NCBI GenBank assembly: GCA_021298835.1
Contig: JAJTHG010000001.1
Location: forward strand, 35,993-99,992
Reading direction: 5' to 3'
Source of the DNA: Gemmatimonadota bacterium
GTDB lineage: Bacteria; Gemmatimonadota; Gemmatimonadetes; Gemmatimonadales; Gemmatimonadaceae
Length of the DNA: 64,000 bases
A program made the position numbers and the translations under genes. Below are positions 5,180-63,334 of the stretch, piece after piece (position 1 is the first letter of the stretch; each line of letters begins with the position of its first letter). The notes under the pieces were generated by a model. That model searched no databases, was not told the origin of the DNA, and worked only from the letters and a program-made list of their open reading frames with translations.

Positions 5180-5182
5180 ACG

Positions 5183-5217: not shown

Positions 5218-5227
5218 GCCCTCCCCG

Positions 5228-13909: not shown

Positions 13910-14057
13910 GCGGCGAGGGTGGCGGGGACGTCTGACATGACACACGACTCGCGTGCCGCCGTCGGCCCGCCCGGGCATTGTGACCGCCGGTCCCCGGCTC
14001 GTCAACGGCGACTGGCGCGCGCATTGCCAACCGGCCCGTGCCCGATACCATTGCGGC

Positions 14058-14708: not shown

Positions 14709-14819
14709 CGGCCACCCGGCGCCGGCGGCCCGGCGTCCCGAACGAAAGGCGATGCGTCGCACGGCGGGAACCGCGCGCCCGCATCGCTCGCTTGCCAAGG
14801 GACCCCTCCGGAGGCGCCC

Positions 14820-37678: not shown

Positions 37679-37814
37679 GCGGGGAATCTAGCCCAGGAGG
37701 CCGGAGAGGTTGTTGGAGCGGATCGGGCGATTCGACCAGGAGCAGGCTGCGGGGGTCGAGGGCCCCCGGACAACTGACCTCGGTCCCGAATGCAGACAGC
37801 CGGCGGTAGAGTTA

Positions 37815-38375
37815 CGCCGCTTCTTGGGGGGGAGCTCCAGACGGGCATCGGCGAATTCCTTGGGGGGCAGGTGCCCCAGGGCGCCGTGAGGACGGGCCTC
37901 GTTGCGGTCGGTGCGCAACGCCGCGATGACCTGCTGCGCGTGGGCGATGTCCGCGATTTGTGTGACGTTCAAACACTCGTCCCGGAGCTTGCCGTTGAAT
38001 GACTCGATGTAGCTGTTGTCCGTGGGCTTCCCGGGCCGCGTGTGTTCGAGCTGCACGCCGCGCGCATACGCCCAGTCTCCGAGCACGCGCGACATGAACT
38101 CGGTGCCGGGGTCGCGGGTGATCCACACCGGCTTGCCGTACCCCCTGCGTCAGGATCGTCTTCGCATGACCAGCGCGTCATGCACGAAGTCCATGCTCCA
38201 CCGCTGCGCGCGGCCGCTCGGGACCGGTGCCGACCCCCGGTGCAACGCGCGTTGCTTGCGCCGACGGACCCGCTGCCGGTGCTGTAGCCCCTCCAAGCGA
38301 TAGAGCCGCCGAATGCGCTTGAGGTCGACCGGCCAGCCCTCGCGGCGCAGCAGTCCGCCGACGCGTGACCCGCGC
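37815..38375 (-). pseudogene. Decayed IS3-family transposase (orfB remnant)
   Basis: The minus strand encodes, in two frames, the two ends of an IS3-type DDE transposase. The first piece (about 38175-38375) reads GWPVDLKRIRRLYRLEGL and then RWSMDFVHDAL with the first catalytic Asp. The second (about 37815-38140) reads DPGTEFMS and NSYIESFNGKLRDECL with the last Glu, and ends with a PHGALGHLPPKEFA-type tail. Roughly 50 residues that normally lie between these pieces are missing, and the frame changes there. No orfA and no convincing terminal inverted repeats were seen. The 5' end abuts the stop of the AttH-fusion gene. Confidence 0.85.
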
Positions 38376-48745: not shown

Positions 48746-49633
48746 ATGCGCCGTCCGTCGTCCGCCTTCCTGCGTTCGTTCGTGCTGGCTTCCCTGGCCG
48801 CCGCCGGCCCCGCGGCGAGCGCCGCTGCGCAGGCGGCCGGTGCACCGAAGCGGGCCGCGGGCGCCCCGGCTGCGATGCCGTCGACGACCGTGCCCGGCAC
48901 GGTCACCATCAACGCGTACGACTACTTCTACGATTCGCCGAACCCGATCGCCGGCGGCGTCGTCACGATTCGGCTCGTCAATCGCGGCCAGGACTTCCAC
49001 AACGTCTGGATCGTGAAGATCGACGAGGGCTACGCTTTCTCGGACTTCATGCGGGCGATGGGGCCGGGCCGTGCGCTGCCCGGCTGGTTCACCCCGCTCG
49101 GCGGCCCTGAGTCGCCGGAGCCGGGCTCGGAGAGTCGGCTGACCGTGGAGCTCCCGCCGGGCCGCTATGCGCTGGCCTGCCTGCTTCCGGCGGCGGCGCA
49201 CGGCACCACGCACATGGCCAAGGGGATGTTCCTCCCGCTGACGGTGACGAAGGAATCGGCGCGCACGACCCCGAAGGGCGACGTCCCCATCCGCATCACG
49301 CAGGACGGGTTCGTGGCGCCGGAGGCGGTCAACGCGGGGACGCACCTGTTGCATGTCTATTCGGAATCGCCGACGCCCCGCGGCTTCCGTCTCGCGCGCT
49401 TGGGCGACGGCAAGACCGCCGCCGACGCGCAGGCGTGGATCGCCGGCGGCCAGAGCGGGTCGGCACCCTTCGTGCTGGTGGGCGGCACGACGCCGATGGC
49501 GCAGGGCGGTACGGTCTGGATGCCGCTCAGCTTCGCGAGCGGGCGCTACGCGCTGCTGCCGATGGGGATCGACCTCGGCTCCGGCGAACTGCGGTACCAG
49601 AAGGGCACCGTCGCGACGATTCTCGTGCCGTGA
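48746..49633 (+). CDS. Secreted two-domain cupredoxin-like protein
   Basis: A 295-residue exported protein. The first beta-barrel (about 45-170) has a type-1 copper ligand set in the expected order: His in GQDFHNVWI, Cys in YALACLLP, then His and Met in HGTTHMAKGM. The second half (about 180-295) repeats the fold (VPIRITQDGFVAPEAVNAG) but its equivalent strand reads YALLPMG, without the Cys. It therefore probably binds one copper. It lies just before the sulfur-oxidation gene cluster and may be an electron acceptor for its cytochromes; this is inference. Confidence 0.75.
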   Translation: MRRPSSAFLRSFVLASLAAAGPAASAAAQAAGAPKRAAGAPAAMPSTTVPGTVTINAYDYFYDSPNPIAGGVVTIRLVNRGQDFHNVWIVKIDEGYAFSDFMRAMGPGRALPGWFTPLGGPESPEPGSESRLTVELPPGRYALACLLPAAAHGTTHMAKGMFLPLTVTKESARTTPKGDVPIRITQDGFVAPEAVNAGTHLLHVYSESPTPRGFRLARLGDGKTAADAQAWIAGGQSGSAPFVLVGGTTPMAQGGTVWMPLSFASGRYALLPMGIDLGSGELRYQKGTVATILVP

Positions 49634-49644: not shown

Positions 49645-49716
49645 GTCACCGCCCCCGTCACCGCCCCCGTCACCGCCCCCGTCACCGCCCCCGTCACCGC
49701 CCCCGTCACCGCCCCC
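49645..49716. repeat. 12-bp tandem array (6 units) at the end of the cytochrome c gene
   Basis: Six head-to-tail exact copies of GTCACCGCCCCC fill the gap between the cupredoxin stop and the cytochrome c gene. The cytochrome stop codon (TCA at 49706-49708) is inside the unit nearest the gene, and every other unit carries the same stop in the same frame. Unit identity suggests recent expansion. Confidence 0.95.
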
Positions 49717-50344
49717 GGTCGTCGTCCACGAACCGCCCCGCCGCCGGCATCTTCACGCGCATCAGCGCCGCCGAGTCAAGGACCGCGTCGGCCGGCACGA
49801 TCTCGTTGGCCGCAAGCACCCACGCGGTGAGCGCGTAGGTCTCCGCGGGCGTCAGCGAGCCCGGCGCGAAGTAGGGCATCGCGCGCTGGATGTAGTCGTA
49901 GAGCGTCGTCGCGTGCGGCCAGTAGTTCCCCACGGTACGGATGATCGTCGGGTCGGAGGCGAAGCCGAATCCGGCCCGCGGCTCGCGCCCGACCAGCGCG
50001 GGATACGCGGGGGGCATCCCTTCGCCCTTCACGCCGTGGCACATCGCGCACTTCGCCGCGTACAGCGCGGCCCCCTCGGCCGCGGTGCCGCGACCGGGAG
50101 GCAGGCCGTGGCCGAGTGTGTCAACGTCGAAGTCCCACGCGGCGACGCGGGCCGGGTCGGCCGGGCGGCCGACGCCGAGGCGCTGCCAGTCGCGCGGCAG
50201 AGTCGCCGACCGCGACGCCGGATCGGCCGACCACGGGACGCCGTTCCGCCCGGGCGACCGGCGCGCGTTGGCCGCGTCCGACGCTCCACCGCAGGCGACC
50301 AGCAACCCGGTGACGAGCATCGCCGCGGCGCGCGACGGCGTCAT
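49706..50344 (-). CDS. SoxD/SorB-like monoheme cytochrome c lipoprotein
   Basis: A 212-residue exported protein with lipobox LLVACGG (Cys about 17) and one heme site CAMCH near residue 92. The lead-in GHGLPPGRGTAAEGAALYAAKC is typical of cytochromes that partner sulfite/sulfane dehydrogenases. A Met ligand is likely in AMPYFAPGSL. Its start overlaps the soxC stop (ATGA). It probably accepts electrons from SoxC. It is shorter than the usual diheme SoxD. Confidence 0.85.
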   Translation of the reverse strand: MTPSRAAAMLVTGLLVACGGASDAANARRSPGRNGVPWSADPASRSATLPRDWQRLGVGRPADPARVAAWDFDVDTLGHGLPPGRGTAAEGAALYAAKCAMCHGVKGEGMPPAYPALVGREPRAGFGFASDPTIIRTVGNYWPHATTLYDYIQRAMPYFAPGSLTPAETYALTAWVLAANEIVPADAVLDSAALMRVKMPAAGRFVDDDRGR

Positions 50345-51597
50345 GCCCACACCTCGCCGTTGGCGAAGGTCACGGTGCCGTCCGCCGCGACCTTCCACGC
50401 CCGGATGTCGTGATAGTGGTAGTCGGAGCCGGGGCCGCGGGTGGCACGCCATTCGGTGCGCGTCGGCTGGATCATCCCCGTCTCGTCGGTGGCGCGGCTC
50501 ATGAGGATCGTCTCGCGACCGTCGAACCGCCACGGCAGGGTGAAGCGCACGACGCTCTTGGGATGCTCCGCCCCGACGAGGGCGGCCGGTCGCCACGTGG
50601 CCCCGCGATCGGTGCTGACTTCGACCGTCGTGATGCGACCGCGGCCGCTCCACGCGAAGCCCGCGATGATGCGCGGGCCCGGCCGCAGCACTTCAGGGTG
50701 AGCCGGCGTCGTGATGATGCTCTTCACGTCCTGCTCGAAGGAGAAGCGGCGTGCCGTGTCGCCCGGCAGCGGGTCGGTGTACTTGCTCGTCTCCCAGCGG
50801 GTCATCCACGGCGCGGTGCCAAGTTCGAGGCGGCGCAACCACTTCACGTTGATGTTCCCCTCCCAGCCGGGCAGCAGCAGGCGGAGCGGGAAGCCCGTCT
50901 CGGGCCGGAGCGGCTCGCCGTTCTGCGCGTACACCAGCAGCGCATCGTCGAGCGCCTTCCACACCGGCACGCTGCGGGTGAGGCGCGCGGCGTCGCCCCC
51001 TTCGGCGAGCAGCCACGTCGCCGCCGCGTCCATGCCGACCTCGGCCAGCAGGTCGCGCAGCGGCAGGCCGGTCCATTCGCTGTTCGAGAGCTGCCCGTCC
51101 ACCTGCTGGGGTGTCAGGTCGGGCCGCGGCTTGCGGAAGGCCTCGCGCCCGTTGCCGGCACACTCGATGAAGTGGGGGCGCGTAACCGGGGGAAAGGCCT
51201 TGAGGTCGTCGAGCGTGAACTCGGTCGGGTGCGCCACGCGCCCGTGGACGAGCAGCCGGTGCTGCGCCGGATCGATGAGCGGGATGCCGCCGTGGTGCCG
51301 CTCGAAGTGCAGGTCGCTCGGCGTGATGGTGCCGGAGAGCAGTTGCAGCGGTGTCTTGCTCGTCCCCTCGGTGAGTCCCACCGGGGCGCGCGAGGGCTGC
51401 ACGAAGGGCGAACGGCTGCCGACGGCCGTCGTCGGGCCGCCCGTGACGCGCGTGGGGTCGATTGGGACGACCGGGGGCGCGGCCGGCGGTTGCGCGCCCG
51501 CCGGCATGGCATCGGCCAGCCGCGCGGCGACGGCACCGGCGGCGACACCGACGGCGCCCTTGATCACCTCGCGACGCGAGGGACCGGACCTTGCCAT
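50341..51597 (-). CDS. soxC: SoxC-type molybdopterin sulfite/sulfane dehydrogenase
   Basis: A 418-residue Mo enzyme with a Tat-type signal (SRREVIKG then a hydrophobic stretch). The SoxC-specific ITPSDLHFERHHGG and DPAQHRLLVHG motifs are present, the Mo-ligating Cys146 is in HFIECAGNGR, and LRLLLPGWEGNINVKWLRRL and a C-terminal dimerisation domain (SGRGRITTVEVSTDRGATW) follow. In Sox systems SoxCD oxidises sulfane sulfur on SoxY; related enzymes oxidise sulfite. No SoxXYZAB is in the window, so the true substrate is open. It is flanked by two cytochrome c genes in one operon. Confidence 0.92.
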   Translation of the reverse strand: MARSGPSRREVIKGAVGVAAGAVAARLADAMPAGAQPPAAPPVVPIDPTRVTGGPTTAVGSRSPFVQPSRAPVGLTEGTSKTPLQLLSGTITPSDLHFERHHGGIPLIDPAQHRLLVHGRVAHPTEFTLDDLKAFPPVTRPHFIECAGNGREAFRKPRPDLTPQQVDGQLSNSEWTGLPLRDLLAEVGMDAAATWLLAEGGDAARLTRSVPVWKALDDALLVYAQNGEPLRPETGFPLRLLLPGWEGNINVKWLRRLELGTAPWMTRWETSKYTDPLPGDTARRFSFEQDVKSIITTPAHPEVLRPGPRIIAGFAWSGRGRITTVEVSTDRGATWRPAALVGAEHPKSVVRFTLPWRFDGRETILMSRATDETGMIQPTRTEWRATRGPGSDYHYHDIRAWKVAADGTVTFANGEVWA

Positions 51598-51600
51598 CCG

Positions 51601-52566
51601 CTACGGACCGCCGGGCGTCGCCGGCGCGCGCGGGGGCTGCGGCACCACGGAGTAGGCCGGGTAGCGTCGTGGCAAGAGCGTGGGCGTCACGTAGGGCGCG
51701 TGGCCCTGCGTGGCGTAGGGGACGTCGTAGGGGGCTCCGCCGGTGGGCCAGTCCTTTTCCTTGCCCGGGGAGTCGGGGCGCGGCTGGCGCACGATGAAGG
51801 AGGCCACGTCGAAGGCCTGCTGCTCGGTCAGGGTGCCCCCCTGTCCGAGAGGCATGTTGTGCCAGATGAAGCTCGCGGCGCGCTCCTCGCGGGTCATGGA
51901 GGCGCCGACCGAGAACGACTTCGGGCCCCACAGCGCCGGGTTGACGGCCACGCCCTGGCCGTCGGGACCATGGCAGACGGCGCACTTCTCCTTGAAGATC
52001 GCCTCGCCGCGGGATGGATCGCCGGTGAGCTTGTTCGGCATCCCGAGCAGCCCGTCCACCTTCGCCTTGGTGCCGACGGGGATGCCCTTCGACAGGTAGG
52101 CGAGGTAGTTGACGATGTCCGTCATCTCCTTGCTGTTGTTGGCGAGCCGGCTGCCGGCGAGGGAGCGGGTGAAGCAGTAGTTGACGCGATCCTCGACCGT
52201 GATGACGGCACCCGTGCGGGCCATGTACTTGGGGAAGCGCGCGAAGGTGCCGGTGAGGGGCGCCGCCTTGTCCTCGAGCCCGTTGTTCAGGTGGCACGAG
52301 GTGCACTGCAGGTTGCTGTGCGCGTATCCCGGGAGGGAGTCCGTGGTGTGCGCCAGCAGGGCCTGGCCTCGGCGGATGGAGCGGCCGAGCGAATCGTCGG
52401 GGATGCTGTCGAGCGACGGCGGCGTCCAGGATGCCCAGTCGAAGCCGGCCTTCGGCGCGGTGGCGGTGGCCGACGGGGACTCGGCGCGGGGGGCGCAGGC
52501 GGCGAGGCCGGCCGCGAGCACGAGGGCGAGCGCGATGGCGGGCACGATGGCGACGAGGCGGGGCAT
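51601..52566 (-). CDS. tsdA: TsdA-type diheme cytochrome c (thiosulfate dehydrogenase)
   Basis: A 321-residue protein with lipobox LAAC (Cys24). Hemes bind at CTSCH (88-92) and CAVCH (195-199). Cys131 in DRVNYCFTRSL lies 39 residues after His92, the same spacing as the axial Cys ligand of heme 1 in Allochromatium TsdA. HNMPLG offers the Met ligand for heme 2. TsdA joins two thiosulfates to tetrathionate, or works in reverse. The lipid anchor and a Pro-rich C-terminal extension are unusual. It leads the operon with soxC and a cytochrome c. MPRLVAIV is taken as start; a longer frame begins at 52614. Confidence 0.88.
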   Translation of the reverse strand: MPRLVAIVPAIALALVLAAGLAACAPRAESPSATATAPKAGFDWASWTPPSLDSIPDDSLGRSIRRGQALLAHTTDSLPGYAHSNLQCTSCHLNNGLEDKAAPLTGTFARFPKYMARTGAVITVEDRVNYCFTRSLAGSRLANNSKEMTDIVNYLAYLSKGIPVGTKAKVDGLLGMPNKLTGDPSRGEAIFKEKCAVCHGPDGQGVAVNPALWGPKSFSVGASMTREERAASFIWHNMPLGQGGTLTEQQAFDVASFIVRQPRPDSPGKEKDWPTGGAPYDVPYATQGHAPYVTPTLLPRRYPAYSVVPQPPRAPATPGGP

Positions 52567-52590
52567 CGGCGATCGGGTGGGGCGGCACGG

Positions 52591-52637
52591 GATCATATAT
52601 AACCGAGTTGGCATATTGTGACCCGTACGGTACGGGT
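52591..52637. promoter_or_regulatory. Operator region upstream of tsdA: AT-rich dyad and 17-bp palindrome
   Basis: In the divergent tsdA/YeeE intergenic region the AT-rich stretch ATATAACCGAGTTGGCATAT forms an imperfect dyad (ATAAC at 52599-52603) and includes a TATGAT -10 candidate for tsdA. Next to it lies the perfect palindrome ACCCGTACGGTACGGGT (52621-52637). Both are likely protein sites; the ArsR regulator encoded nearby is the obvious candidate for the AT-rich one. Confidence 0.55.
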
Positions 52638-52672
52638 GGTGCCTCGGGTGCGCAAGGGTCGGCCGGCGGCTC

Positions 52673-52699
52673 TTGCATAACTAGATGGTCAACTAGTAT
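52673..52699 (+). promoter_or_regulatory. Promoter/operator of the YeeE/YedE pair
   Basis: An AT-rich island in high-GC DNA. TTGCAT (52673-52678) and TAGTAT (52694-52699) could be -35 and -10 boxes, though spacing is only 15. The inverted repeat ACTAG-N8-CTAGT (52680-52697) overlaps them. ATAAC at 52677-52681 matches the motif upstream of tsdA and arsR. The ATG at 52709 would leave almost no leader. Confidence 0.5.
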
Positions 52700-52708
52700 C
52701 GTCGTGGC

Positions 52709-53311
52709 ATGCGGTCGCCGCCCGGGGCGGCGGTCGCCGGACCCCGACCCGCCGTCCCGATGGCCACGCGCACCGCTTCCCCTCCCGCCTCCGCATCGCG
52801 CTCGGCTGCGCGCACCGTCGGCGGGATCCCGCCCTGGGCCTCGCTCGGAGTGCTCTTCGGCGTCACGAGCGCCCTCTCGATCCTCGCCTTCGGGCCGATC
52901 GGCGTCTCGGGCACCTACCCCCGGGCGATCGGGTCCGTCGCCCGGGCGATCGCGCCCGGCTGGGCCGCGAATGAGGGGTATCTGGTCAAGATGGGCAGCG
53001 TCGTGACCCCCGAGTCGCTGCTCGTCGTCGGCCTGCTCCTTGGCGGCTTCCTCGCCCGGCGGCTCGGGCACCAGCCGCGGCCGGTCGCCGCCGAGGTCGT
53101 GCACGCCGTCGAGCGGACGCCGGGCCGGCGATACCTGACGGCGTTCCTCGGGGGCTTCCTGATCCTGTTCGGCGCGCGCCTCGCGGGCGGCTGCACCAGC
53201 GGCCACATCATCAGCGGCATCACCCAGCTCGCCGCGAGCTCGTTCATCTTCGCCGCCGCCGTCTTCGGGGCGGGCATCCTGACGGCGAAGCTCATCCGTC
53301 CGAGGGCCTGA
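52709..53311 (+). CDS. YeeE/YedE family sulfur-compound transporter, N-terminal half protein
   Basis: A 200-residue membrane protein with four to five TM helices. GARLAGGCTSGHIISG holds the conserved Cys that handles thiosulfate in YeeE/TsuA. It corresponds to one half of the fused E. coli transporter; the other half is the next gene, 2 bp downstream. The ATG at 52709 is the first available; ATG 52760 is an alternative that would remove 17 residues. Together they probably import thiosulfate or a related sulfur species. Confidence 0.88.
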   Translation: MRSPPGAAVAGPRPAVPMATRTASPPASASRSAARTVGGIPPWASLGVLFGVTSALSILAFGPIGVSGTYPRAIGSVARAIAPGWAANEGYLVKMGSVVTPESLLVVGLLLGGFLARRLGHQPRPVAAEVVHAVERTPGRRYLTAFLGGFLILFGARLAGGCTSGHIISGITQLAASSFIFAAAVFGAGILTAKLIRPRA

Positions 53312-53313
53312 CC

Positions 53314-53856
53314 ATGACGCTCTTCTACGGCCTGCTCGTCGGCGTCGCGATGGGCGCGTTCATCCAGCGCGTCGGCGCCTCGTCGCCGGCGATGATCCTC
53401 GAGAACCTGCGGCTCAAGGACCTCTCGGTGATCAAGTTCATGGCCACCACCATCGCCGTGGGCTCGATCCTCGCCTACCTCCTCGCCGCGGGCGGGGCGC
53501 CGATGCACTTCGACATCAAGCCGACGTACGTCATCGGCGTTGCACTCGGCGGGCTGGTCTTCGGCGTCGGCTTCGCGCTGGGCGGCTACTGCCCCGGGAC
53601 GTGCGTCGTCGGCATCGGCGAAGGTCGCAAGGATGCGTGGGCGGCGATCGCCGGCGGCGTGGCGGGGGCGTTCGTCTTCACGCTGCTGTGGCCGGTGCTC
53701 GAACCCGCGCTGATCAAGCCGTTCAACTACGGCAAGGTCACCGTGCCCCAGCTGCTGGGCGCTTCGCCGGTGGTGGCGGCGGCGGTGCTGGCCGCGGTCT
53801 TCCTGACGATCGTCACGCTGCTGCCGACGCGGCCGGGCGAGGCGCCTCGGGGGTGA
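53314..53856 (+). CDS. YeeE/YedE family sulfur-compound transporter, C-terminal half protein (DUF6691-like)
   Basis: A 180-residue membrane protein with four to five TM helices. GGYCPGTCVVGIGEGRKDAW is the partner Cys motif of YeeE/YedE, with two Cys three residues apart. It follows the first half after 2 bp and is surely co-expressed. The split, two-protein form is common in Bacteroidota, Gemmatimonadota and some Proteobacteria. A hairpin terminator follows. Confidence 0.9.
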   Translation: MTLFYGLLVGVAMGAFIQRVGASSPAMILENLRLKDLSVIKFMATTIAVGSILAYLLAAGGAPMHFDIKPTYVIGVALGGLVFGVGFALGGYCPGTCVVGIGEGRKDAWAAIAGGVAGAFVFTLLWPVLEPALIKPFNYGKVTVPQLLGASPVVAAAVLAAVFLTIVTLLPTRPGEAPRG

Positions 53857-53863
53857 GCGGTAC

Positions 53864-53882
53864 GGGGGCCCCGCCGGCCCCC
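53864..53882. terminator. Bidirectional hairpin between YeeE/YedE and arsR
   Basis: GGGGGCC-CCGCC-GGCCCCC, a perfect 7-bp stem between two convergent stop codons. No T-run is present. Confidence 0.55.
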
Positions 53883-53890
53883 CGCGCTGC

Positions 53891-54223
53891 TCAGGCGCCG
53901 GCGAGCACGCGCTGCCGACGGGTGGCCTCGGCCTCCACCCGCTCGCACATGACGTCGCACAGCTTGAAGACGCCCTTGTCCGCCAGCCGGTAGCGCACGA
54001 ACAGGCCCTCCTTTCGGCGCGCCACGAAGCCGAGCGCGTGCAGCTGCTTGAGCTGCTTGCTCGTGTTCGCCTGCGACAGCCCCGTCCGCTCGACGATGTC
54101 CGTCACGTTGAGCTCGCCGTCGCGCAGCGCGTTGAGGATCTGCAGGCGCGACGCGTCGCCCAGCGCCTTGAAGCGGTGGGCGATGAGTTCGAGGATGTCG
54201 GGCGTGAGCGGGAATCTGGCCAT
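53891..54223 (-). CDS. ArsR-family transcriptional regulator of the sulfur cluster
   Basis: A 110-residue winged-helix repressor (FKALGDASRLQILNALRDGELNVTDIVERTGLSQANTSKQLKQL, given here only by its ends at residues 18 and 61). The arsenic/metal motif ELCVCD is absent. Its only Cys pair is Cys89/Cys93 in the last helix (KLCDVMC), unlike the persulfide sensors SqrR/BigR, which have one Cys in an early helix and one in the last. Location next to the YeeE genes and shared AT-rich motifs suggest it represses the sulfur genes and itself. Confidence 0.88.
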   Translation of the reverse strand: MARFPLTPDILELIAHRFKALGDASRLQILNALRDGELNVTDIVERTGLSQANTSKQLKQLHALGFVARRKEGLFVRYRLADKGVFKLCDVMCERVEAEATRRQRVLAGA

Positions 54224-54341: not shown

Positions 54342-55496
54342 GTGGAGCTCCCCTCATGGTCCGCAGTCGCCGCCGCCTTGCCGTGGGTCGTCACCCCGGC
54401 GGTCTCGGCGTGGCGATTGCTCGACAGCACCCCCCTGCCGCCGCCCGGGCCACTGGTCGGCGCGCCACCGCGGGTGAGCGTGATCGTCCCCGCCCGCAAC
54501 GAGGTCCGCAACATCGAGCGGCTCGTGCGCAGCGTCCTCGCCACGACGTGGCCCGACCTCGAACTCATCGTCGTGGACGACCACTCCAGCGACGGCACCG
54601 GGGCGCTGGCCCGCACGGCCGGCCACGGCGACCCGCGCCTCGTCGTCTTCGAGCCGCCGTCGCTTCCCGAGGGCTGGTTCGGCAAGCAGTGGGCCTGCTG
54701 GTGCGGTGCCCAGCGTGCCACCGGCGACCGGCTCCTGTTCGCGGACGCCGACACCTGGCATGCCCCGGGCCTCGTCGCCCGGATGGTGCGCGCCCAGGAC
54801 GACAGCGCGGCCGACCTGCTGAGCGTCGCCGGCACGCAGGAACTGCGCACGTTCTGGGAGCGGGTGGTGATGCCGCTGCCGTTCCTCTTCCTGCTGCTGC
54901 GCTTCGGCGGGCTCAACGCCTGCGAACGGGCCACGTCGCCCCGCGGCGTGATCGCCAACGGCCAGTGCCTGATCATGCGCCGCACGACCTATCAGGACCT
55001 CGGTGGGCACGAGGCGGTGCGCGACACCGTGGCCGAGGACCTGCGGCTGGCCCAGCACGTGCGCGCACACGGGGGCGTGGTCGCGGTGCGCGCCGGGCTC
55101 GACGCGCAGCGCACCCGCATGTACCGCTCGCTCGGCGCGATCGTCGCCGGCTGGTCGAAGAACATCTATGCGGGCGGCAAGCACATGCTCCCCCCCGCGT
55201 TCCGGCCGCTCTTCCGCCTGACGCTCCCGGTGGGGCCGCTGCTGCTGCTCGCCCCGGCGCTGCTGGTCGTGGCGGCCTGGATCGGCTCGGTACCGCCGTG
55301 GCTCGGGCAGGCGGGCGCGATCGCGCTCGCCTCGCAGACGGTGTGGGCCGCCGTGATGTACCGCTGGTTGCAGCTTCCGGTCTGGTACGCGTTCGCGCAT
55401 CCTCTCGGGTCGGCGGCGATGCTCTGGGTGACGCTCGTGGCCGCGGTACGGGGCGACGCGGTGACCTGGGCCGGTCGGACCTACGCGGCACGCTGA
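54342..55496 (+). CDS. Family 2 glycosyltransferase with C-terminal TM helices
   Basis: A 384-residue membrane enzyme. PRVSVIVPARNEVRNIERLVRS starts the GT-A fold. VVDDHSSDGTG binds nucleotide sugar, FADADT is the DxD metal site, and AEDLRLAQ supplies the catalytic Glu-Asp. Hydrophobic segments near 210 and three at 295-370 anchor it. The overall shape matches HpnI/CrtQ-like transferases acting on lipids such as hopanoids or carotenoids; the acceptor is unknown. GTG 54342 is preferred, since the upstream frame opens only with TTG and lacks homology. Confidence 0.85.
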   Translation: MELPSWSAVAAALPWVVTPAVSAWRLLDSTPLPPPGPLVGAPPRVSVIVPARNEVRNIERLVRSVLATTWPDLELIVVDDHSSDGTGALARTAGHGDPRLVVFEPPSLPEGWFGKQWACWCGAQRATGDRLLFADADTWHAPGLVARMVRAQDDSAADLLSVAGTQELRTFWERVVMPLPFLFLLLRFGGLNACERATSPRGVIANGQCLIMRRTTYQDLGGHEAVRDTVAEDLRLAQHVRAHGGVVAVRAGLDAQRTRMYRSLGAIVAGWSKNIYAGGKHMLPPAFRPLFRLTLPVGPLLLLAPALLVVAAWIGSVPPWLGQAGAIALASQTVWAAVMYRWLQLPVWYAFAHPLGSAAMLWVTLVAAVRGDAVTWAGRTYAAR

Positions 55497-55583: not shown

Positions 55584-58500
55584 GTGCTCACCGCCGCGCG
55601 GGCTTGCCGCCTCCTCGAGACCACCGACCGGCTCGCGCTCGCCCTCCTGAGCGACGCGCTCGGCGCCGCGCCCCCGCAGCCGCTGCCACGCGAGGTTCGC
55701 GACGCCCTGCACTTGCCCCCCATGCTCGCGGCCGCGCGGGTGGCCGAGCGTGGGGGGCGCCTCCGGCTGTTGCTCGCCGAAGTCCGCGGCGTCGAGCCAA
55801 TGCGCGACATCCTGCGGCGCGTCGCGCAGCGGCTCGTCACGCACGCCCCGCACCGGCTGTGGGCCACCATCCTCTGGCGGCGCGATCCCGACGAAACGGT
55901 GCTGGCCACGGTGCTTCCCGGCCAGCCGGCGCCGCAGGTGTCCGCCCTCGTCGTGCGCCGCAGCCGCGTGGTGGACAGCGACGGCCAGACCTTCGCCGCC
56001 GTCGCCGCTGTCCCGGACGCGGGGGACGACGACCTCGTGCACCTTCGCTGGGCGGAACTGCTGGGCCGCACGGCGCTGACCGCACGCTTCTACCGGGCGC
56101 TCGATGCGGCGGTGCGTGGACTCGCGGCGTCGCTCCCCGCTGCGGTGGCGGCCGATGCGCGGCGCCCGCTCGCGATCACGGCGGCGTCGCGGCAGCTCTT
56201 TCTCGCCTTCCTCGAAGCCAAGGGCTGGCTCGACGGCGACCGGGGCTTTCTCGCCCGGACCTTCGACACCTGCATGGCCGCCGGTGGCGGCTACCACCGG
56301 CGCGTGCTCGAACCGCTGTGGTTCGGCACCCTCAACACCCGTACGGCCCAGCGGGCCGCGGCGGCGGGGGCCTTCGGCCGAGTCCCGTTCCTCAACGGCG
56401 GCCTCTTCGCCCGCACCCCCGAAGAGCGGCGGTACCGCGGCGCGTGGTTCGGAGACGACGCGCTCGGGCACCTCGGGGGCGAGGTCCTGGGCCGGTTCCG
56501 CTTCACGGCCCGCGAGGACGCGCGCACCCATCGCGAGGCAGCGGTGGACCCGGAGATGCTCGGCCTCGCCTTCGAGTCGCTCATGGGCGGTGCCGAGCGC
56601 AAGGCGACCGGGGCGTTCTACACCCCACCCGCACTCGTCGAGTCGGTGGTGCAGGAAGCGCTCGCCGATGCGCTGGAAACCCGCGCCGTTCCGCGAGAGG
56701 CGATCGCCCTCGCCCTCGCGGGCGAGCCGCCGACGGGACGCCCCCGCGCGGCCCTCCTCGCCCGCGCCCGGCATCTGACGGCGATCGACCCGGCCTGCGG
56801 CTCGGGAGCGTTCCTGGTGCGGCTGCTCGAATCACTCGCCACCGTACGCCGGGCCTGCGATGATCCGCTCGACGACGCGGCACTTCGACGCGACATCCTC
56901 GCGCGCCAGCTGCACGGCGTGGACCGCAATCCCGTCGCCGTGTGGCTCTGCGAATTGCGCCTGTGGCTGGCGGTGGTCGTGTCGCACGACGAGCCCGACC
57001 CGCGCCGCGTGCCGCCCCTCCCGAACCTCGACCGGCACGTGCGGGTGGGCGACGCGCTGGCCGGCGGCGACTTCACCGTGCACACCGCCGCCGCCGTGTC
57101 GCGCCGCGTGGCCGCGCTGCGCGAGCGCTATGCCCGCGCCACCGGCCCGCGCAAGCGGACGCTGGCCCGGCAGCTCGACGCCGCCGAGCGCGGCGCCGCC
57201 CTCGCGCGCATTGACCGCGAACGCGAGGCCCTCGCGCACGAGCGCCGCGAGCGACTCGCGGCCGCACGGACGCCGGACCTCTTCGGCCATCGTCCGCGCG
57301 AGTCACGGGAGGCCCGTGCGGCGCGGCGCGCGCTGCGCGACCAGCTCGCCCGCCTCGCACGGGACCGGATGCGCCTGGCGAACGGCGGTGCGCTCCCGTT
57401 CTCGTTCGCCGCGCACTTCGCCGCCGTCGCCGCTGGTGGCGGCTTCGACCTCGTGATCGGGAATCCGCCGTGGGTCCGGCCGCACCACGTCGAACCGGCA
57501 GAACGGGAGCAGTGGCGGACCCGCTTCGCCGTGCAGCGTGACGCGGCGTGGAAGGCCGGTGCGACCGACGCCGGAGCGGGCACCGGCTTCGCCGGCCAGG
57601 TGGACCTCGCGGCGCTCTTCACCGAGCGCGGTCTCTCGTTGTGCCGGCCCGGCGCTACGCTCGGGTTCCTCGTACCCGCCAAGCTCTGGCGGTCGCTCGC
57701 CGGTGGCGGCTGGCGGGCGCTGCTCGCCGAGCAGGCCACGCTGCGCCGCCTCGAGGACTGGAGCGAGGGACCATCGACATTCGATGCCGCGGTGTATCCC
57801 GGCGTGGTGCTCGCGCGCCGACGGGGCCCGACATCCGACGCGGAGGCGACGCCGGTCGCCCCCGCCGGCGCCGAGGCACCCGCGCAGCTCGTGGTGGTGC
57901 GCCGGGGAACGGCGATCGCCTGGGCGGCGGCACCCGCGGCTCTGGCCTTCGATTCGACCCGTGGCGCACCATGGCTGCTGCTTCCGCCGCGAGTGCGGCG
58001 CGCGTTCGAGGCACTCCGCGCCGCAGGCATTCCGCTCGGGCGCTCGCCGCTTGGCCGGCCGACCCTGGGGGTGAAGTGCGGCGTCAACGACGCCTACGTC
58101 GTCGAACGCGCGGCCGGCACCGACAGCGCGCTCGTCGAGGTGCGCGCCGGCGACCGGCGCGGACGCGTCGAACGGGCGTTCGTGCGGCCCCTCGTCCGCG
58201 GGGACGCGTGCGAGCCGTGGCGGATCGCGCCGTCGGCCAGCGCGCTGGTGTTTCCGCACGACGGCGAAGGGCCGTTGGCCGCGCTGCCCCCGGGTGTATC
58301 GCATTGGCTCGGGCCCTGGCGGCGCCGGCTGGTCGCCCGCACGGACGTGCGGGCGAGTCGCCACCGGCCGTGGTGGATGCTCTTCCGCACGGAGGCCGCG
58401 CGCGCCGACCGGCCCCGGGTCGTCTGGAGCGACTTCGGCCGCGTGCCGCGCGCCGCGGTCCTGCCGGCCGGCGCTCCGCACGTGCCGCTCAACACCTGTT

Positions 58501-58814
58501 ACGTCGTCCGGACCGCATCGGACGACGACGCCCTCGCACTCGCGGCGCTGCTCAACTCCGCACTCGCGGCGGCGTGGCTCGGCGCGATCGCCGAGCCAGC
58601 GCGCGGCGGCTGGCGGCGCTTCCTGGGCTGGACCGTGGCGCAGTTGCCGGTGCCGGCGGACTGGGCTGCCGCCGTGCGCACGCTGGCGCCGCTCGGGGCG
58701 GCGGGGTGGCGCGGCGCTCCTCCCGCGGCCGACGTGCTGTGGGAGGCGGTGGCGGACTGCTACGGCGTGCCGCCGGCGCTCCTGCGGCCGCTGCTCGAGT
58801 GGGCGGCGGGGTGA
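55584..58814 (+). CDS. Eco57I/PglX-type N6-adenine DNA methyltransferase with specificity domain
   Basis: A 1076-residue protein. The N-terminal 330 residues are helical, as in type IIG/ISP enzymes. The gamma-class methylase core follows: motif X GAFYTPPALVE (about 342), motif I AIDPACGSGAFL (about 400), GVDRNPVAVWLCELRLWL, GDAL, and motif IV GNPPW (about 626). A long Arg/Glu helical insert (about 500-600) separates motifs III and IV. The C-terminal part (about 820-1060) looks like a target-recognition domain (LGVKCGVNDAYVV; FLGWTVAQLPVP). No PD-(D/E)XK nuclease motif was seen at either end. The stop overlaps the helicase start as GTGA. The GTG start lacks a clear ribosome site. Confidence 0.88.
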   Translation: MLTAARACRLLETTDRLALALLSDALGAAPPQPLPREVRDALHLPPMLAAARVAERGGRLRLLLAEVRGVEPMRDILRRVAQRLVTHAPHRLWATILWRRDPDETVLATVLPGQPAPQVSALVVRRSRVVDSDGQTFAAVAAVPDAGDDDLVHLRWAELLGRTALTARFYRALDAAVRGLAASLPAAVAADARRPLAITAASRQLFLAFLEAKGWLDGDRGFLARTFDTCMAAGGGYHRRVLEPLWFGTLNTRTAQRAAAAGAFGRVPFLNGGLFARTPEERRYRGAWFGDDALGHLGGEVLGRFRFTAREDARTHREAAVDPEMLGLAFESLMGGAERKATGAFYTPPALVESVVQEALADALETRAVPREAIALALAGEPPTGRPRAALLARARHLTAIDPACGSGAFLVRLLESLATVRRACDDPLDDAALRRDILARQLHGVDRNPVAVWLCELRLWLAVVVSHDEPDPRRVPPLPNLDRHVRVGDALAGGDFTVHTAAAVSRRVAALRERYARATGPRKRTLARQLDAAERGAALARIDREREALAHERRERLAAARTPDLFGHRPRESREARAARRALRDQLARLARDRMRLANGGALPFSFAAHFAAVAAGGGFDLVIGNPPWVRPHHVEPAEREQWRTRFAVQRDAAWKAGATDAGAGTGFAGQVDLAALFTERGLSLCRPGATLGFLVPAKLWRSLAGGGWRALLAEQATLRRLEDWSEGPSTFDAAVYPGVVLARRRGPTSDAEATPVAPAGAEAPAQLVVVRRGTAIAWAAAPAALAFDSTRGAPWLLLPPRVRRAFEALRAAGIPLGRSPLGRPTLGVKCGVNDAYVVERAAGTDSALVEVRAGDRRGRVERAFVRPLVRGDACEPWRIAPSASALVFPHDGEGPLAALPPGVSHWLGPWRRRLVARTDVRASRHRPWWMLFRTEAARADRPRVVWSDFGRVPRAAVLPAGAPHVPLNTCYVVRTASDDDALALAALLNSALAAAWLGAIAEPARGGWRRFLGWTVAQLPVPADWAAAVRTLAPLGAAGWRGAPPAADVLWEAVADCYGVPPALLRPLLEWAAG

Positions 58815-61213
58815 GCGAAGCGGCGGCGTGGGCCGCCTTGGCCGCCGCGGCGGGCGATCGCGTCTCGCACGAGCGCGAGGCGTCGGGGGACGCCGATGTC
58901 GCGGCTGACCTCGCCGTGCGGATCGGTCGCGTCACGCTGTTGCCGCACCAAGTGGACGCCGTGCGTCGGCTGCGCCGGCTCCTGCGCGCCCGGCGCGTCG
59001 CCCTGCTCGCCGACGAGACCGGCCTGGGCAAGACGTACGTCGCCTGCGCCCTCGTGCGCGACGCGACCCGGCCCGTGGTGGTCGTGCCGGCGGCATTGCG
59101 CGTGCCATGGCGCGCGGCCCTCGCCGACACGGCCGCGATGGCGCGCGTCGTGAGCCATGAGGGGCTCTCGCGCACCGGCACGCGGGGTCCGGCTCCGGAC
59201 TTCGTCGTGATCGACGAGGCGCACCACGCGAGGAATCCCGCGACGCGGCGCTGGCAGCACCTGGCCACCTTGTGCCGTGACGCAACGGTGCTGTTGCTCT
59301 CCGCGACCCCGATCCACAACCGCGCCCGCGACCTCGCGGCGCTGTTCGCACTGGTGGCGGGTCCCGACGCGTTCGCGTGGTCCCTCGACGTCCTCGCCCG
59401 CGGCGTCGTGCGGCGCGATCGCCGGGTGCTCGGGTCACCGGGCGTCCGGCGGGCCGGCGCGGTCGGCGCGGTCGGCGCGGTCGGCGCGATCGGCGACCCA
59501 GGAGGCGTCGGGGCCGCCATGCCCGCGCTGGCGCCATGGCGATGGCATCCCGCACCCGCCGACCCACGGATCGCCGAGCGCCTCGAGGCGCTGCCACCCG
59601 CACTCGCCGCTGCCGACGGTGCCGACGCCGCGCCGCTCTGGCGCATGGGGCTGCTGCGCGCCTGGGCCTCGTCCTCCGCCGCCCTCGTCGCGGCCCTCCG
59701 ACGCCGGATCGCGCGCGGGCTCGCGCTCGACCAGGCGTTGCGCGACGGTCGTCACCTGACGCGCGCGCAACTCGCGCGCTGGACCGACGACGACGTGGCG
59801 ACCCCCGAGTTGCCGCTCGACGACGCACCGCACGTCGGCACCACGCGGAGACGCTCGGCGGCGTCACGCGACCCGACGGGACGCGCCGCCCCCGTGACCC
59901 ACCCGCCGCCGGCCCGCGACGTGGTGCTCGCCCATCTCGAGGCGCTCGGACACCTGCTGCCGCTCGTCTCCGCCGCCGCCGAGTCGCACGACGCGGCGCG
60001 AGCGGCCGTCGTCGCCCGCACGCTCGACGAGACGCCCGAAGCGCGGGCGGTCCTGTTCTGTACGGACGCCGTCACGGCCGCCATGTACTGGCGCCACCTG
60101 TCGCGCCGTCCCGGCGTCGCCCTCGCCACCGGGCGAGGCGGGCGCATCGCCAGCGGCCCCGTCACGCGCGACCATCTCTTCGCCGCCCTCGACCGCGATG
60201 GTCCCGCACGGCGACACGCGCGGGAACAGGTCCGGCTGCTCGTCGCCACCGACGTCGCGAGTGAAGGGCTCACGCTGTCCGCCGCATCGGTCGTCTGGCA
60301 TGCGGACCTGCCGTGGACGCCCGCGCGCGTCACGCAGCGCATCGGTCGCGTCGCGCGACTGGCCTCGCGGCACCCGGTGGTGACGATCCATGCGTTCGCC
60401 CCGCCCGACGCTGCGGAATCGCGTCTCGGGCTTCTTCCGCGTCTCGACCACAAGGCCGACATCGCCGCCGCACTGGGGACGGCGGGACCGTGGCGCGACG
60501 CGGCGGGTGCCGGCGCGCACCCGGCGCGGCGCGACCCCGACCCACCCGCCGATGTGCAGTCGGCCCTCGCGCGCCTCGCCGCAGCACGGCACGCCTGCGC
60601 CCGGACACAGGCGGGCAGGCGGCCGACGACACCCGGTGCCGCGCCAACGGTCGTCCGCCACGGGCCCCGGCGCGCCATCGTCGCCGTGCTCGACTCGACC
60701 GACGGCCCGGCGCTGTGGACCCTCGCCGACGCCGCCGACCCCGATCCCTCGCCGGTCGCGGCGTGGCGCGCCCTCGCGGACGTCGCGTGGGACGCGCCGC
60801 CACCCCGTGATGCCGCGCGTGTTCGGCGGGCCGCGCTCGCGCGGCTGCGCGATGCCATGCGCCGCCACGGGACGGCCGCGAGCGTCGGACACGCCGACGG
60901 TGGCCCGACCGCCGTCGCCCCGGCGACGGCACGACTGCTCGCGCGGCTCGCCGGGGCCGTCAGGGATACGGCACCGCACCGGCGTGCCGCCGCCGTCAGC
61001 TGCGCCGCCGCGTGGCGTCGTCGCCTCGCGGCGCCGGTGCCGGCGGGATGGCAACCGGAGCTGCTGGCCCTCGCCACCAGCCCGGTGCGCGGCGACGCCT
61101 GGTGGGTTGACGCCGCCACGCTGCGATCCCGCCTGCCGCCGCCCTCGGTACCCGGAGCCCCCCGCGCGATCGCCGCGCTGTTCGTCCTCGTGGGGCCGCA
61201 GGCCGGTCGCTAG
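58811..61213 (+). CDS. SNF2-like superfamily 2 helicase (DrmD/HepA type)
   Basis: An 800-residue SF2 ATPase. LLPHQVDAVRRL is the Q-like region, Walker A ADETGLGKTYVA (about 66-77), DEAH box VIDEAHHARNP (about 133), LLSATPIHNR (about 163), and motifs V-VI LLVATDVASEGLTLSAA ... TQRIGRVARL (about 477-517). The stretch between about 210 and 400 carries low-complexity AVG repeats. The last 260 residues are Ala/Arg-rich and unassigned; no nuclease motif was seen. It is translationally coupled to the methyltransferase, so the two almost certainly act together in DNA modification or phage defence. Confidence 0.87.
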   Translation: MSEAAAWAALAAAAGDRVSHEREASGDADVAADLAVRIGRVTLLPHQVDAVRRLRRLLRARRVALLADETGLGKTYVACALVRDATRPVVVVPAALRVPWRAALADTAAMARVVSHEGLSRTGTRGPAPDFVVIDEAHHARNPATRRWQHLATLCRDATVLLLSATPIHNRARDLAALFALVAGPDAFAWSLDVLARGVVRRDRRVLGSPGVRRAGAVGAVGAVGAIGDPGGVGAAMPALAPWRWHPAPADPRIAERLEALPPALAAADGADAAPLWRMGLLRAWASSSAALVAALRRRIARGLALDQALRDGRHLTRAQLARWTDDDVATPELPLDDAPHVGTTRRRSAASRDPTGRAAPVTHPPPARDVVLAHLEALGHLLPLVSAAAESHDAARAAVVARTLDETPEARAVLFCTDAVTAAMYWRHLSRRPGVALATGRGGRIASGPVTRDHLFAALDRDGPARRHAREQVRLLVATDVASEGLTLSAASVVWHADLPWTPARVTQRIGRVARLASRHPVVTIHAFAPPDAAESRLGLLPRLDHKADIAAALGTAGPWRDAAGAGAHPARRDPDPPADVQSALARLAAARHACARTQAGRRPTTPGAAPTVVRHGPRRAIVAVLDSTDGPALWTLADAADPDPSPVAAWRALADVAWDAPPPRDAARVRRAALARLRDAMRRHGTAASVGHADGGPTAVAPATARLLARLAGAVRDTAPHRRAAAVSCAAAWRRRLAAPVPAGWQPELLALATSPVRGDAWWVDAATLRSRLPPPSVPGAPRAIAALFVLVGPQAGR
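59456..59491. repeat. 9-bp in-frame tandem repeat (4 units) in the helicase gene
   Basis: Four units of GGCGCGGTC, the last with one change, encode a Gly-Ala-Val run (AVGAVGAVGAIG) in the linker between the two RecA-like lobes of the helicase. Confidence 0.9.
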
Positions 61214-61223: not shown

Positions 61224-61889
61224 GTGACCCTACGCCCGCTCCTCTTCGACCTCGACGGCACGCTCGTTGATTCCATCGAGCTCATCGTCGGGGCCATGCA
61301 CTACGCATTCGAGGGTCGCCCGGTGCGCCCGCCGGACGCGGAGTGGATCGCCCTGATCGGCACGCCACTGCAGGGGATGCTTGCCCGTTGGGCGGACGGT
61401 CCCGCCGACGTCGAGACGCTGGTGCAACGCTACCGCGAGTACCAGTTCGCGAACCACGACGCCCTCACCCAGCCGTATCCGGGCGTGAGCGAGACGGTGG
61501 CCGAGCTGCACGCGGTCGGCCACCCGATGGCGGTGGTGACGAGCAAGAGCGTCGCGCTGTCCATCCGGGCGCTCGAGTGGGTGGGTATCATCCGCTACTT
61601 CCCGGTGATCGTCGGCCTCGAGAGCACGGCCCGCCACAAGCCCGATCCCCTGCCCGTGCGCCATGCCCTGCAGGAACTCGGGCGGCCCGACGCGTCGGGC
61701 GTCGAGGCCGTGTTCGTCGGCGACTCGCCGCACGACATCCACGCGGGCAACGCGGCCGGCATCCTGACGGTCGCGGCGCAGTGGGGACCGTTCGATCGGA
61801 AGACCCTCGCCGAGGCGCAGCCCGGTGCCTGGCTGCGCAACATCCGCGACCTGCCCGGCCTGCTTCGCGAGCTCGACGCCCGGGTCTGA
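61224..61889 (+). CDS. HAD-superfamily phosphatase (PGP/PpaX-like)
   Basis: A 221-residue HAD hydrolase. Motif I LLFDLDGTLVDS (nucleophile Asp and acid/base Asp), motif II VVTSK, motif III RHKPDPLPV and motif IV FVGDSPHDIHAGNAAG are intact, with a helical cap of type C1 (YAFEGRPV...GTPLQGMLARW). This pattern fits phosphoglycolate phosphatase or pyrophosphatase PpaX; substrate is not certain. GTG 61224 lies 10 bp after the helicase stop, so it may be co-transcribed with the methylase-helicase pair without being functionally linked. Confidence 0.9.
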   Translation: MTLRPLLFDLDGTLVDSIELIVGAMHYAFEGRPVRPPDAEWIALIGTPLQGMLARWADGPADVETLVQRYREYQFANHDALTQPYPGVSETVAELHAVGHPMAVVTSKSVALSIRALEWVGIIRYFPVIVGLESTARHKPDPLPVRHALQELGRPDASGVEAVFVGDSPHDIHAGNAAGILTVAAQWGPFDRKTLAEAQPGAWLRNIRDLPGLLRELDARV

Positions 61890-62051: not shown

Positions 62052-62606
62052 ATGACCTCCCCCGCACACGCGGCATCGGCCGCCGGTCCGTCGCATGACG
62101 ACGTCCGCGCTGCACAAGGGGGCGATCGGCAGGCATTCGAACGGCTCTACCGCGCGCACGTCAGCCGCGTCTTCTCGGTCTGCGTGCGGATGTGCGGCAG
62201 CCGCGCGGAGGCCGAGGAGCGGACGCAGGACGCCTTCGTGCGGGCCTGGGACAAGCTCCCGCAGTTCCGTGGAGACTCGTCGTTCGGCACGTGGCTGCAC
62301 CGGTTGGCGGTGAACGTCGTGCTCAACGCGAGGGAGGGTACGGGACGCGAGCGCGCCCGCGAGGTGGAGGATGCCGCCGACGCCCTCGAGGCGACGGCCG
62401 GCCGCGCCGCCCCGCCGGGGCTCGCGCTCGATCTCGAGCAGGCGATCGCCGGCCTTCCGGCCGGAGCGCGCCGGGTCTTCACCCTGTTCGACGTCTGCGG
62501 CTACACGCACGAGGAAATCGCCGACCAGCTCGGCATCACCACCGGCGGGAGCAAGGCGCAACTCCACCGCGCACGGCTCCTTCTCCGCCAGGCCCTGTCC
62601 CGATGA
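62052..62606 (+). CDS. ECF-family RNA polymerase sigma factor
   Basis: A 184-residue sigma factor. Region 2 contains DRQAFERLYRAHVSRVFSVC and TQDAFVRAWDKLPQFRGDSSFGTWLHRLAVNVVLN; region 4 contains LPAGARRVFTLFDVCGYTHEEIADQLG and SKAQLHRARLLLR. It directs transcription of an envelope- or stress-type regulon, presumably including its own operon. ATG 62052 is used. Its stop overlaps the anti-sigma start as ATGA. Confidence 0.95.
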   Translation: MTSPAHAASAAGPSHDDVRAAQGGDRQAFERLYRAHVSRVFSVCVRMCGSRAEAEERTQDAFVRAWDKLPQFRGDSSFGTWLHRLAVNVVLNAREGTGRERAREVEDAADALEATAGRAAPPGLALDLEQAIAGLPAGARRVFTLFDVCGYTHEEIADQLGITTGGSKAQLHRARLLLRQALSR

Positions 62607-63334
62607 CTCCCGCTTCCTTCACCTGCGACGACTTCGAGGCCGCGCTCCCTGCGTGGCTGGACGGAACGCTGACGTCCGAGGACCACGCGACCGTCGAGGC
62701 GCACCGCGACGGCTGCGCGCGCTGCGCCGCCCTCGTCGCCGACCTGCACCAGCTCATGTCCGATGCGCGCGCCCTGCCCGAACTGACGCCGTCCCGCGAC
62801 CTGTGGCCCGACATCGCCGCGCGCATCGCGCCGCGGGTGATCGAGTGGCCGGCCGGGACGTCCACCGACGCGCCGATGGGGCCGCGCGACGCGTTGCCCG
62901 CGAGGGGCGGTGCGCCGTCGTGGCGGCGCTGGGCCGCCGCCGCAGCCCTCGTCGTGGTGTCGGTGGGGGGCACCTACCTCGCGATGCAGTCGCCCGTCAC
63001 GTCGCGGTCGGGGGAGCGCCTGGTGGTGGAAGGCCCCGGGCAGCCGCGGCCGCCGCGGCCGATCGCGGTGAGCCACCCTTCGGCCTCCGAGACGCTGTCG
63101 GGGGAGCTCGAGGAACTCGAGCGGGCGCTCGCGCAGCGCGAGCCCGAGCTCGATCCGAAGACCGCCGCCGTCATCCGGCGGTCCTTGGCCACCATCGACC
63201 GGGCCATCGCCGATGCCCGCGCGGCGCTCGACGCCGATTCCTCGAACGTACTGCTCGACCGACAGCTCACCCGCGTGCTCGGCAAGAAGGTCGAGCTCAT
63301 GCGCCGGGCGGCGTTGCTGCCCGCGCGAACCTGA
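62603..63334 (+). CDS. Zinc-finger (zf-HC2) anti-sigma factor, membrane-bound
   Basis: A 243-residue protein. The N-terminal anti-sigma domain has the ZAS motif H-x3-C-x2-C (His34, Cys38, Cys41). A single TM helix lies near 110-125 (WAAAAALVVVSVGGTYLAM), followed by an extracytoplasmic tail with a helical coiled-coil region (LSGELEELERALAQREPELD). Cys8 may complete the zinc site. It holds the preceding ECF sigma factor inactive until an envelope or redox signal arrives. Overlap with the sigma gene supports 1:1 expression. Confidence 0.92.
   Translation: MTPASFTCDDFEAALPAWLDGTLTSEDHATVEAHRDGCARCAALVADLHQLMSDARALPELTPSRDLWPDIAARIAPRVIEWPAGTSTDAPMGPRDALPARGGAPSWRRWAAAAALVVVSVGGTYLAMQSPVTSRSGERLVVEGPGQPRPPRPIAVSHPSASETLSGELEELERALAQREPELDPKTAAVIRRSLATIDRAIADARAALDADSSNVLLDRQLTRVLGKKVELMRRAALLPART

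Follow-up and report, generated by a model that had tools for sequence, protein, structure and literature searches.

The window analysed here comprises 64,000 nucleotides from a bacterium of the family Gemmatimonadaceae, phylum Gemmatimonadota (assembly GCA_021298835.1, contig JAJTHG010000001.1), and the subject is a pair of overlapping genes in it, encoding a predicted adenine-N6 DNA methylase and a SNF2-type helicase or translocase. The sequence comparisons suggest that the methylase has been kept as a lineage-wide writer of N6-methyladenine (m6A) together with its SNF2 partner, for a purpose other than restriction. Constant marking of the cell's own DNA is preferred to ordinary restriction because the neighbourhood of the pair is conserved in most of the family genomes examined and no DNA-cutting domain was recognised. 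We consider it evenly balanced whether the pair is indeed a nuclease-less relative of a restriction-modification-like (R-M-like) pair, writing and maintaining one constant m6A mark on its own genome.

The gene pair and its conserved position

Both reading frames are open on the forward strand (Table 1). The methylase was matched by the Pfam families Eco57I (64.2 bits, cut-off 25.3) and N6_Mtase (26.0, cut-off 20.4), and the helicase by SNF2-rel_dom (41.7 bits, cut-off 24.9) and Helicase_C (47.7, cut-off 23.5), with ResIII also above its cut-off. The Walker A motif GLGKT was conserved in 80 and the DEAH box in 81 of 82 aligned helicases. A preliminary description, made from the letters of this DNA, had reported a methylase and a helicase with intact core motifs, coupled by a GTGA overlap, and a probable specificity domain in the methylase; frames, Pfam matches and alignments bear out the former, and a recognition region was located by fold alignment. 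Its observation that no nuclease is visible also holds, in that the Pfam scan of both proteins gave no nuclease family at E ≤ 1. The two proteins have at least 2776 and at least 365 scored homologues at E ≤ 0.001. Because these are numerous and the linkage is conserved, the pair is taken to be more than a chance arrangement.

Linkage was examined in the window and in 58 fetched regions no longer than 20 kb, which were picked for holding the methylase. The helicase was present in 58 of these 59 regions, always on the strand of the methylase, and within 60 bp of the methylase stop in 43; some helicases absent from the gene calls were located by six-frame search. At least one of five flanking genes (NUDIX, glycosyltransferase, HAD, ECF sigma factor, zinc finger) was retained in 39 of 42 family loci, whose constant order is NUDIX(-)-GT2-[HAD]-methylase-helicase-[HAD]-ECF-zinc finger.

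Table 1 Gene pair, motifs, regions and conserved flanking genes in the window
Feature	Positions	Strand	Basis
Adenine-N6 DNA methylase (Eco57I/PglX-type, CamA-like fold), 1076 aa, GTG start	55584..58814	+	ORF, Pfam, AlphaFold2 model, fold list
SNF2-type helicase/translocase, 800 aa, without PLD domain	58811..61213	+	ORF, Pfam, AlphaFold2 model, fold list
GTGA overlap: helicase start GTG (58811) over methylase stop TGA (ends 58814)	58811..58814	+	Sequence
DPACGSG motif, methylase residues 402-408	56787..56807	+	Alignment; invariant in 83 relatives
NPPW catalytic motif, methylase residues 627-630	57462..57473	+	Alignment; invariant in 83 relatives
Walker A GLGKT, helicase residues 71-75	59021..59035	+	Alignment
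DEAH box, helicase residues 135-138	59213..59224	+	Alignment
Motif VI region QRxGRxxR, helicase residues 509-516	60335..60358	+	Alignment
Predicted alpha/beta domain, methylase residues 1-160; no lysine column ≥80%	55584..56063	+	AlphaFold2 model, alignment
Target-recognition region as used here, methylase residues 775-1030	57906..58673	+	Fold alignment, conservation
Helicase tail, residues 582-800, mostly helical (predicted), conserved arginines, fastest-evolving part	60554..61210	+	Model, alignment, dN/dS
NUDIX protein, conserved upstream flank, more distant in this genome	48057..48644	-	Pfam, locus comparison
Family 2 glycosyltransferase, conserved upstream flank	54342..55496	+	Pfam, locus comparison
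HAD-type hydrolase, conserved flank; downstream here, upstream in genera g2, g9, g11	61224..61889	+	Pfam, locus comparison
ECF-type sigma factor, conserved downstream flank	62052..62606	+	Pfam, locus comparison
Zinc-finger (zf-HC2) protein, conserved downstream flank	62603..63334	+	Pfam, locus comparison

Distribution and inheritance

For each of the two genes, a profile of 32 sequences was searched against one set of 395 genomes from the phylum, with presence called at E ≤ 1e-60 for the methylase and E ≤ 1e-40 for the helicase. The methylase was found in 216 and the helicase in 209 of the 395 genomes. Among the 140 sampled Gemmatimonadaceae, 123 had the methylase, 120 the helicase and 119 both. 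The control gene hsdR matched in 112/395 phylum and 40/140 family genomes when any match at E ≤ 0.001 was counted, and in 59/395 above the curated cut-off. The 21 family genomes without the full pair comprise 16 with neither gene, one with the helicase only (G363, where it lies at a contig start) and four with the methylase only, namely two contig ends (G222 and G374), a truncated methylase frame (G294) and one real helicase loss (G080). At least one of the 16 is an artefact, since G235 was wrongly scored as pair-less at a contig break with a methylase fragment. For family genomes at least 90% complete, the methylase was present in 94 of 105, and the median genome size was 4.0 Mb in these 94 versus 2.4 Mb in the 11 without it (Mann-Whitney p 6e-5, kinship of the genomes being ignored).

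Two functionally separate operon genes, an orphan methylase beside a RapA-like or repair translocase with no joint role, would be compatible with the RapA chains that are the best sequence matches among solved structures, and with the persistence of the methylase without the helicase in G080. However, 119 of the 124 family genomes with either gene carry both, 17 of 21 supported methylase splits reappear in the helicase tree, and related methylase-helicase pairs occur in other phyla, so that this explanation is held to be very improbable. At the G080 locus (L102, 6334-10755) the helicase and the HAD gene are gone and the ECF sigma factor gene comes directly after the methylase. Two further arrangements were observed. 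About 11.9 kb lie between the two genes in L083 (G025, 3961-15865), whose methylase matches the profile over residues 1-998 only and looks as if it had an insertion at its end. The methylase of genus g8 (L120, L206/L046 and L068; G026, G105 and G108) is split into two frames in all three genomes seen, one with the catalytic part (profile 1-755) and one with the recognition part (757-1068), as if M and S subunits had been separated or a frameshift were shared.

For the comparison with rpoB, 50 genomes were searched, 44 matched and 41 rpoB frames were used; 40 genomes had all three sequences. Over these 40 genomes, distances correlated with those of rpoB at 0.90 for the methylase and 0.82 for the helicase, and within the family (30 genomes) at 0.71 and 0.67; none of 2000 permutations reached the observed values. 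At a support of 0.95 or more rpoB gave 27 splits, of which 19 were recovered in each gene tree, and at most three splits were shared in 200 shuffles of the labels. As judged from these comparisons, the pair has descended mostly vertically, apart from some exchange or error. Whole-gene dN/dS over eight pairs was 0.19-0.34 for the methylase and 0.23-0.43 for the helicase, with dS high in most pairs, and reached 0.22-0.63 in the helicase beyond residue 560. Both genes are under purifying selection, and the helicase tail is less constrained. Mean best-segment identity to the window was 47.0 for the methylase and 43.8 for the helicase, alongside 47.5 for GT2, 49.1 for HAD, 49.0 for the zinc finger, 53.7 for NUDIX and 61.5 for ECF.

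The plasmid search returned 127 records with partial matches, all below 60% identity and none covering 80% of the query, and the phage search a single weak partial match. Distant relatives of 21-31% identity were found on 15 viral contigs (L248-L262), 14 of which also hold a related helicase in the fetched stretch. A mobile defence island was rejected for the family on its prevalence, fixed address and tree.

Recognition domain and candidate motif

Among 40 family methylases, conservation was 0.518 in the recognition region and 0.520 in the catalytic region (residues 331-760), a ratio of 1.00 with a minimum of 0.77 in 780 pairs; the 544 pairs at catalytic identity 0.5-0.6 gave 0.98. Small samples from families f2 and f9 and from Myxococcales gave 0.90, 1.03 and 0.98. 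In 11 relatives whose helicase is armed with a PLD nuclease region, described below, the ratio was 0.56 with a minimum of 0.27 in 55 pairs. The constancy of the recognition region suggests a single target sequence throughout the family.

Three m6A motifs, RGATCY, ATGCAC and CCAGN7TCA, have been reported for Gemmatirosa kalamazoonensis (PMC3974934). In G080, which was taken for this species, PF07669 and PF02384 each match twice, in both cases this methylase and one HsdM-like gene, and PF01555, PF02086 and PF05869 do not match, so that a third m6A enzyme was not found by these profiles. Because G080 has only these two genes and CCAGN7TCA is a type I pattern, this methylase likely makes ATGCAC or RGATCY, provided that G080 is Gemmatirosa kalamazoonensis. 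ATGCAC is neither over- nor under-represented in 0.86 Mb of family stretches (323 observed, 319 expected).

Nuclease-armed and nuclease-less relatives

Of at least 556 relatives, the best 80 were used. The methylase comes first and the helicase second in three Myxococcales loci (L210, L219, L221) and in L226, L228, L231 and L238. Of the seven helicases, those of L210, L226, L228 and L238 gave no PLD family in a Pfam scan; L219 and L231 were called nuclease-less by helicase length and L221 by its cut frame. Likewise, no PLD family was found by Pfam in the window helicase or in the scanned f2, f4, Myxococcales and other nuclease-less helicases. In remoter relatives the helicase is about 1030-1170 residues long and carries a PLD region at its N terminus, and PLDc_2 was matched in all three armed helicases scanned (L239, L243, L244). 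Nineteen entries were labelled armed (12 of them viral contigs), those besides L239, L243 and L244 by helicase length and alignment (shown to L260). Armed relatives were found on viral contigs and in other phyla, and the best PADLOC model for the L243 and L244 helicases was C3a139 'HKD+Snf2'. In one armed relative, a Nitrospirae record (L236), a prokaryotic Argonaute gene (8800-10836; pAgo model, 388 bits) adjoins the pair.

In the methylase tree (52 entries), 33 nuclease-less entries lie on one side of a branch with SH-aLRT 100, and 26 Gemmatimonadota entries on one side of another (90). The armed entries are also on one side of a branch (100) in the helicase tree (51 entries), where the Gemmatimonadota do not form one group and long branches meet. 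As the trees are unrooted, the PLD region may have been lost here or may never have been acquired. Helicases of family f9 (about 1030 aa; L112-L116) have about 195 extra N-terminal residues, in which H.K is absent in 53 of 55. A suggestion from sequence that this extension is a decayed PLD region is statistically unsupported, as profile comparison with the armed PLD regions gave a probability of 4.6% (1.2% with five sequences).

Neighbouring genes and loci without the pair

Besides the pair, 12 genes are called between 48057 and 63334, and 10 were scanned (all except 48746-49633 and 49706-50344). No DISARM or BREX core model was matched in these ten neighbours, and no other defence gene and no nuclease gene was found; the only PADLOC matches were the helix-turn-helix ones of an ArsR-type regulator. 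The ten genes have metabolic or regulatory functions, and so, on reading and Pfam matches, do the conserved neighbours across 57 loci; the zf-HC2 protein is probably an anti-sigma factor. The HAD gene follows the helicase in four of five loci of family f9, and the majority of f2 and f4 loci lack all of these flanks.

Between the conserved NUDIX and glycosyltransferase genes, the window holds a sulfur-oxidation-like set (50341-54223) that is absent from the 57 compared loci. Its members are a molybdopterin oxidoreductase, a SoxA/TsdA-type cytochrome c, two sulfur transport proteins and the ArsR regulator. Elsewhere in the window, a short called frame at 37688-38128 (-) resembles by eye the end of an integrase-core transposase, and a small one at 16983-17333 (+), about 38 kb from the pair, resembles by eye an HNH-type protein.

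Four candidate empty sites were considered, one of which is the contig break in G235. The pair is absent and neighbours are retained on both sides in G189 and G173; the left flank is retained in G263. By eye, from N-termini, the gene after HAD resembles an adhesin-like gene of the conserved neighbourhood in G189 and its membrane-protein neighbour in G173.

Predicted structures

AlphaFold2 models had a mean pLDDT of 90.1 for the methylase and 85.2 for the helicase. In the fold list, the predicted methylase fold is nearest to CamA, the orphan methylase of Clostridioides difficile. The preliminary description had named the long methylase insert and the helicase tail as the places in which a new effector might be sought. 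The insert (503-599) is modelled as long helices and the tail from about residue 560 to 800 as ordered and mainly helical; no effector was found in either, and no entry of the fold lists mainly covers methylase 1-160 or helicase 582-800, both being barely probed by these lists.

An R-M-like system with an unrecognised nuclease, lying in methylase residues 1-160 or supplied in trans, has to be weighed here. MmeI aligned to the methylase model only from residue 163, leaving residues 1-160 at the position of the MmeI nuclease, and this predicted alpha/beta stretch has conserved D133, D149, H153 and E158. On the other hand, no lysine column reaches 80% in residues 1-165, residues 1-120 are the least conserved stretch of the N-terminal half apart from 361-400, and neither Pfam nor the scanned flanking genes gave a nuclease. 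Such a system is therefore regarded as improbable, though less so than two unconnected genes.

Comparison with known systems

DISARM class 1 likewise combines an adenine methylase with a SNF2 helicase, and the pair has weak profile matches to DrmMI (77.8 bits) and DrmD (94.6 bits). DISARM differs in needing drmA, drmB and drmC in the locus, none of which is present among the ten scanned neighbours. The helicase scored 90.7 bits (cut-off 610) and 74.6 bits (cut-off 950) against DrmD equivalog models, and the methylase 64.4 (cut-off 400) against PglX, all far under the curated cut-offs. BREX, with PglX/BrxX, and the BREX-related (BR) systems (PMC12839542) have the BrxC/DUF499 ATPase, PglZ and DUF3780, which are missing among the scanned neighbours. 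For BREX-related type 2 in particular (DUF499 ATPase, DUF3780, HKD-helicase and N6-methylase), no such Pfam family was found in the ten neighbours, and the helicase here is without PLD. A reduced DISARM or BREX was rejected on the scanned neighbours and the profile scores.

The nearest armed relatives found are instead pairs of a PLD(HKD)-SNF2 helicase and a type IIG-like methylase (PADLOC C3a139 'HKD+Snf2' and REase_MTase_IIG), which share homologous, neighbouring methylase and helicase genes. The pair in the window differs in that its helicase has no PLD region, it is chromosomally fixed in one lineage and its recognition domain is constant; the methylase gene comes first here, whereas the helicase gene comes first in many armed pairs. 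Type IIG/IIL enzymes such as MmeI combine nuclease, methylase and recognition domain in one chain. Here methylase and recognition domain were found, Pfam recognised no nuclease family and residues 1-165 have no conserved lysine, no search with residues 1-160 alone having been made, and the SNF2 partner is separate.

CamA is an orphan core methylase present species-wide in Clostridioides difficile, whereas the pair is family-wide; CamA is much shorter, and the part of its description at hand mentions no SNF2 partner (PMC8187626). Like a CamA-type methylase, the methylase here is near-universal in its lineage (123/140) and mainly vertically inherited, as its congruence with rpoB indicates. No cognate nuclease was recognised in the pair or the ten neighbours, a nuclease in trans not having been searched for. 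Among the papers listed from openly licensed PMC text, none was recognised as describing this pair.

Proposed function

The preliminary description had offered a reduced DISARM or BREX relative, a nuclease-independent defence system and a helicase-linked epigenetic modifier. Its observation that neither a nuclease nor DISARM core genes are visible stood for the pair and the ten scanned neighbours. The first option is not the closest description, and the last gained most, from the conserved address, the presence of both genes in 119/140 family genomes and the constant recognition domain. The methylase would mark adenine in one family-wide motif, and the SNF2 partner would move on duplex DNA using ATP, either helping the methylase to reach or clear its sites or acting on the DNA according to the mark, which would serve regulation, replication or repair, not restriction. 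Somewhat less assured than the constant mark is the fuller proposal of an epigenetic system, fixed in the family and extending into the phylum, in which uniform m6A is jointly kept for the cell's own regulation by a SNF2 'remodeller' and a methylase of CamA fold. Such a system would resemble CcrM or CamA, with the difference that it would have an ATP-driven motor to itself.

Several observations count against a resident self-marking role. Since 17 of the 140 family genomes have no methylase match, the pair is dispensable. Each gene tree has supported splits in conflict with four of the 27 supported rpoB splits. Both proteins diverge more rapidly than rpoB (mean distance 0.50 for the methylase and 0.64 for the helicase versus 0.20), though no more rapidly than several of the neighbours. 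Specificity can be shared among armed pairs as well, because the three pairs among the armed L236, L241 and L243 have recognition ratios above 1, and the armed set, drawn from various phyla and from viruses, is unmatched for relatedness with the family set. ATGCAC shows no intergenic enrichment (0.67-fold, ranking 15 of 180 permutations), which weighs against a simple role in promoters, should this be the motif. Finally, the nearest catalogued models are defence or R-M proteins.

The last point leads to the strongest rival, a stably kept, nuclease-independent phage defence in which the methylase would mark self DNA and the SNF2 motor would act on unmarked phage DNA without cutting it, by blocking or displacing the complexes of replication or transcription. 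The best catalogued relatives are defence proteins (DpdE, DrmD, DrmMI, PglX and type IIG), the armed relatives look R-M-like and occur on viral contigs, small genomes lack the pair, and the helicase evolves faster than the methylase. However, in its conserved address, its prevalence and the uniformity of its recognition domain the pair differs from the patchily distributed hsdR and from the armed relatives, and the ten scanned neighbours include no further defence gene. We regard this defence as unlikely, though clearly less so than a hidden nuclease, and retain the constant self-mark as the preferred reading.

Biological significance

Lineage-wide methylases at a fixed address are few, Dam, CcrM and CamA being the textbook cases, and we know of no SNF2 motor as a standing partner of any of them. 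If the proposal is true, a lineage abundant in soil and fresh water possesses a methylome common to the whole family and served by a motor of its own. Comparison with the armed relatives would then make it possible to ask by what route a restriction-like module turns into a resident function of the cell. Cultured members and one published methylome (PMC3974934) make the proposal testable now.
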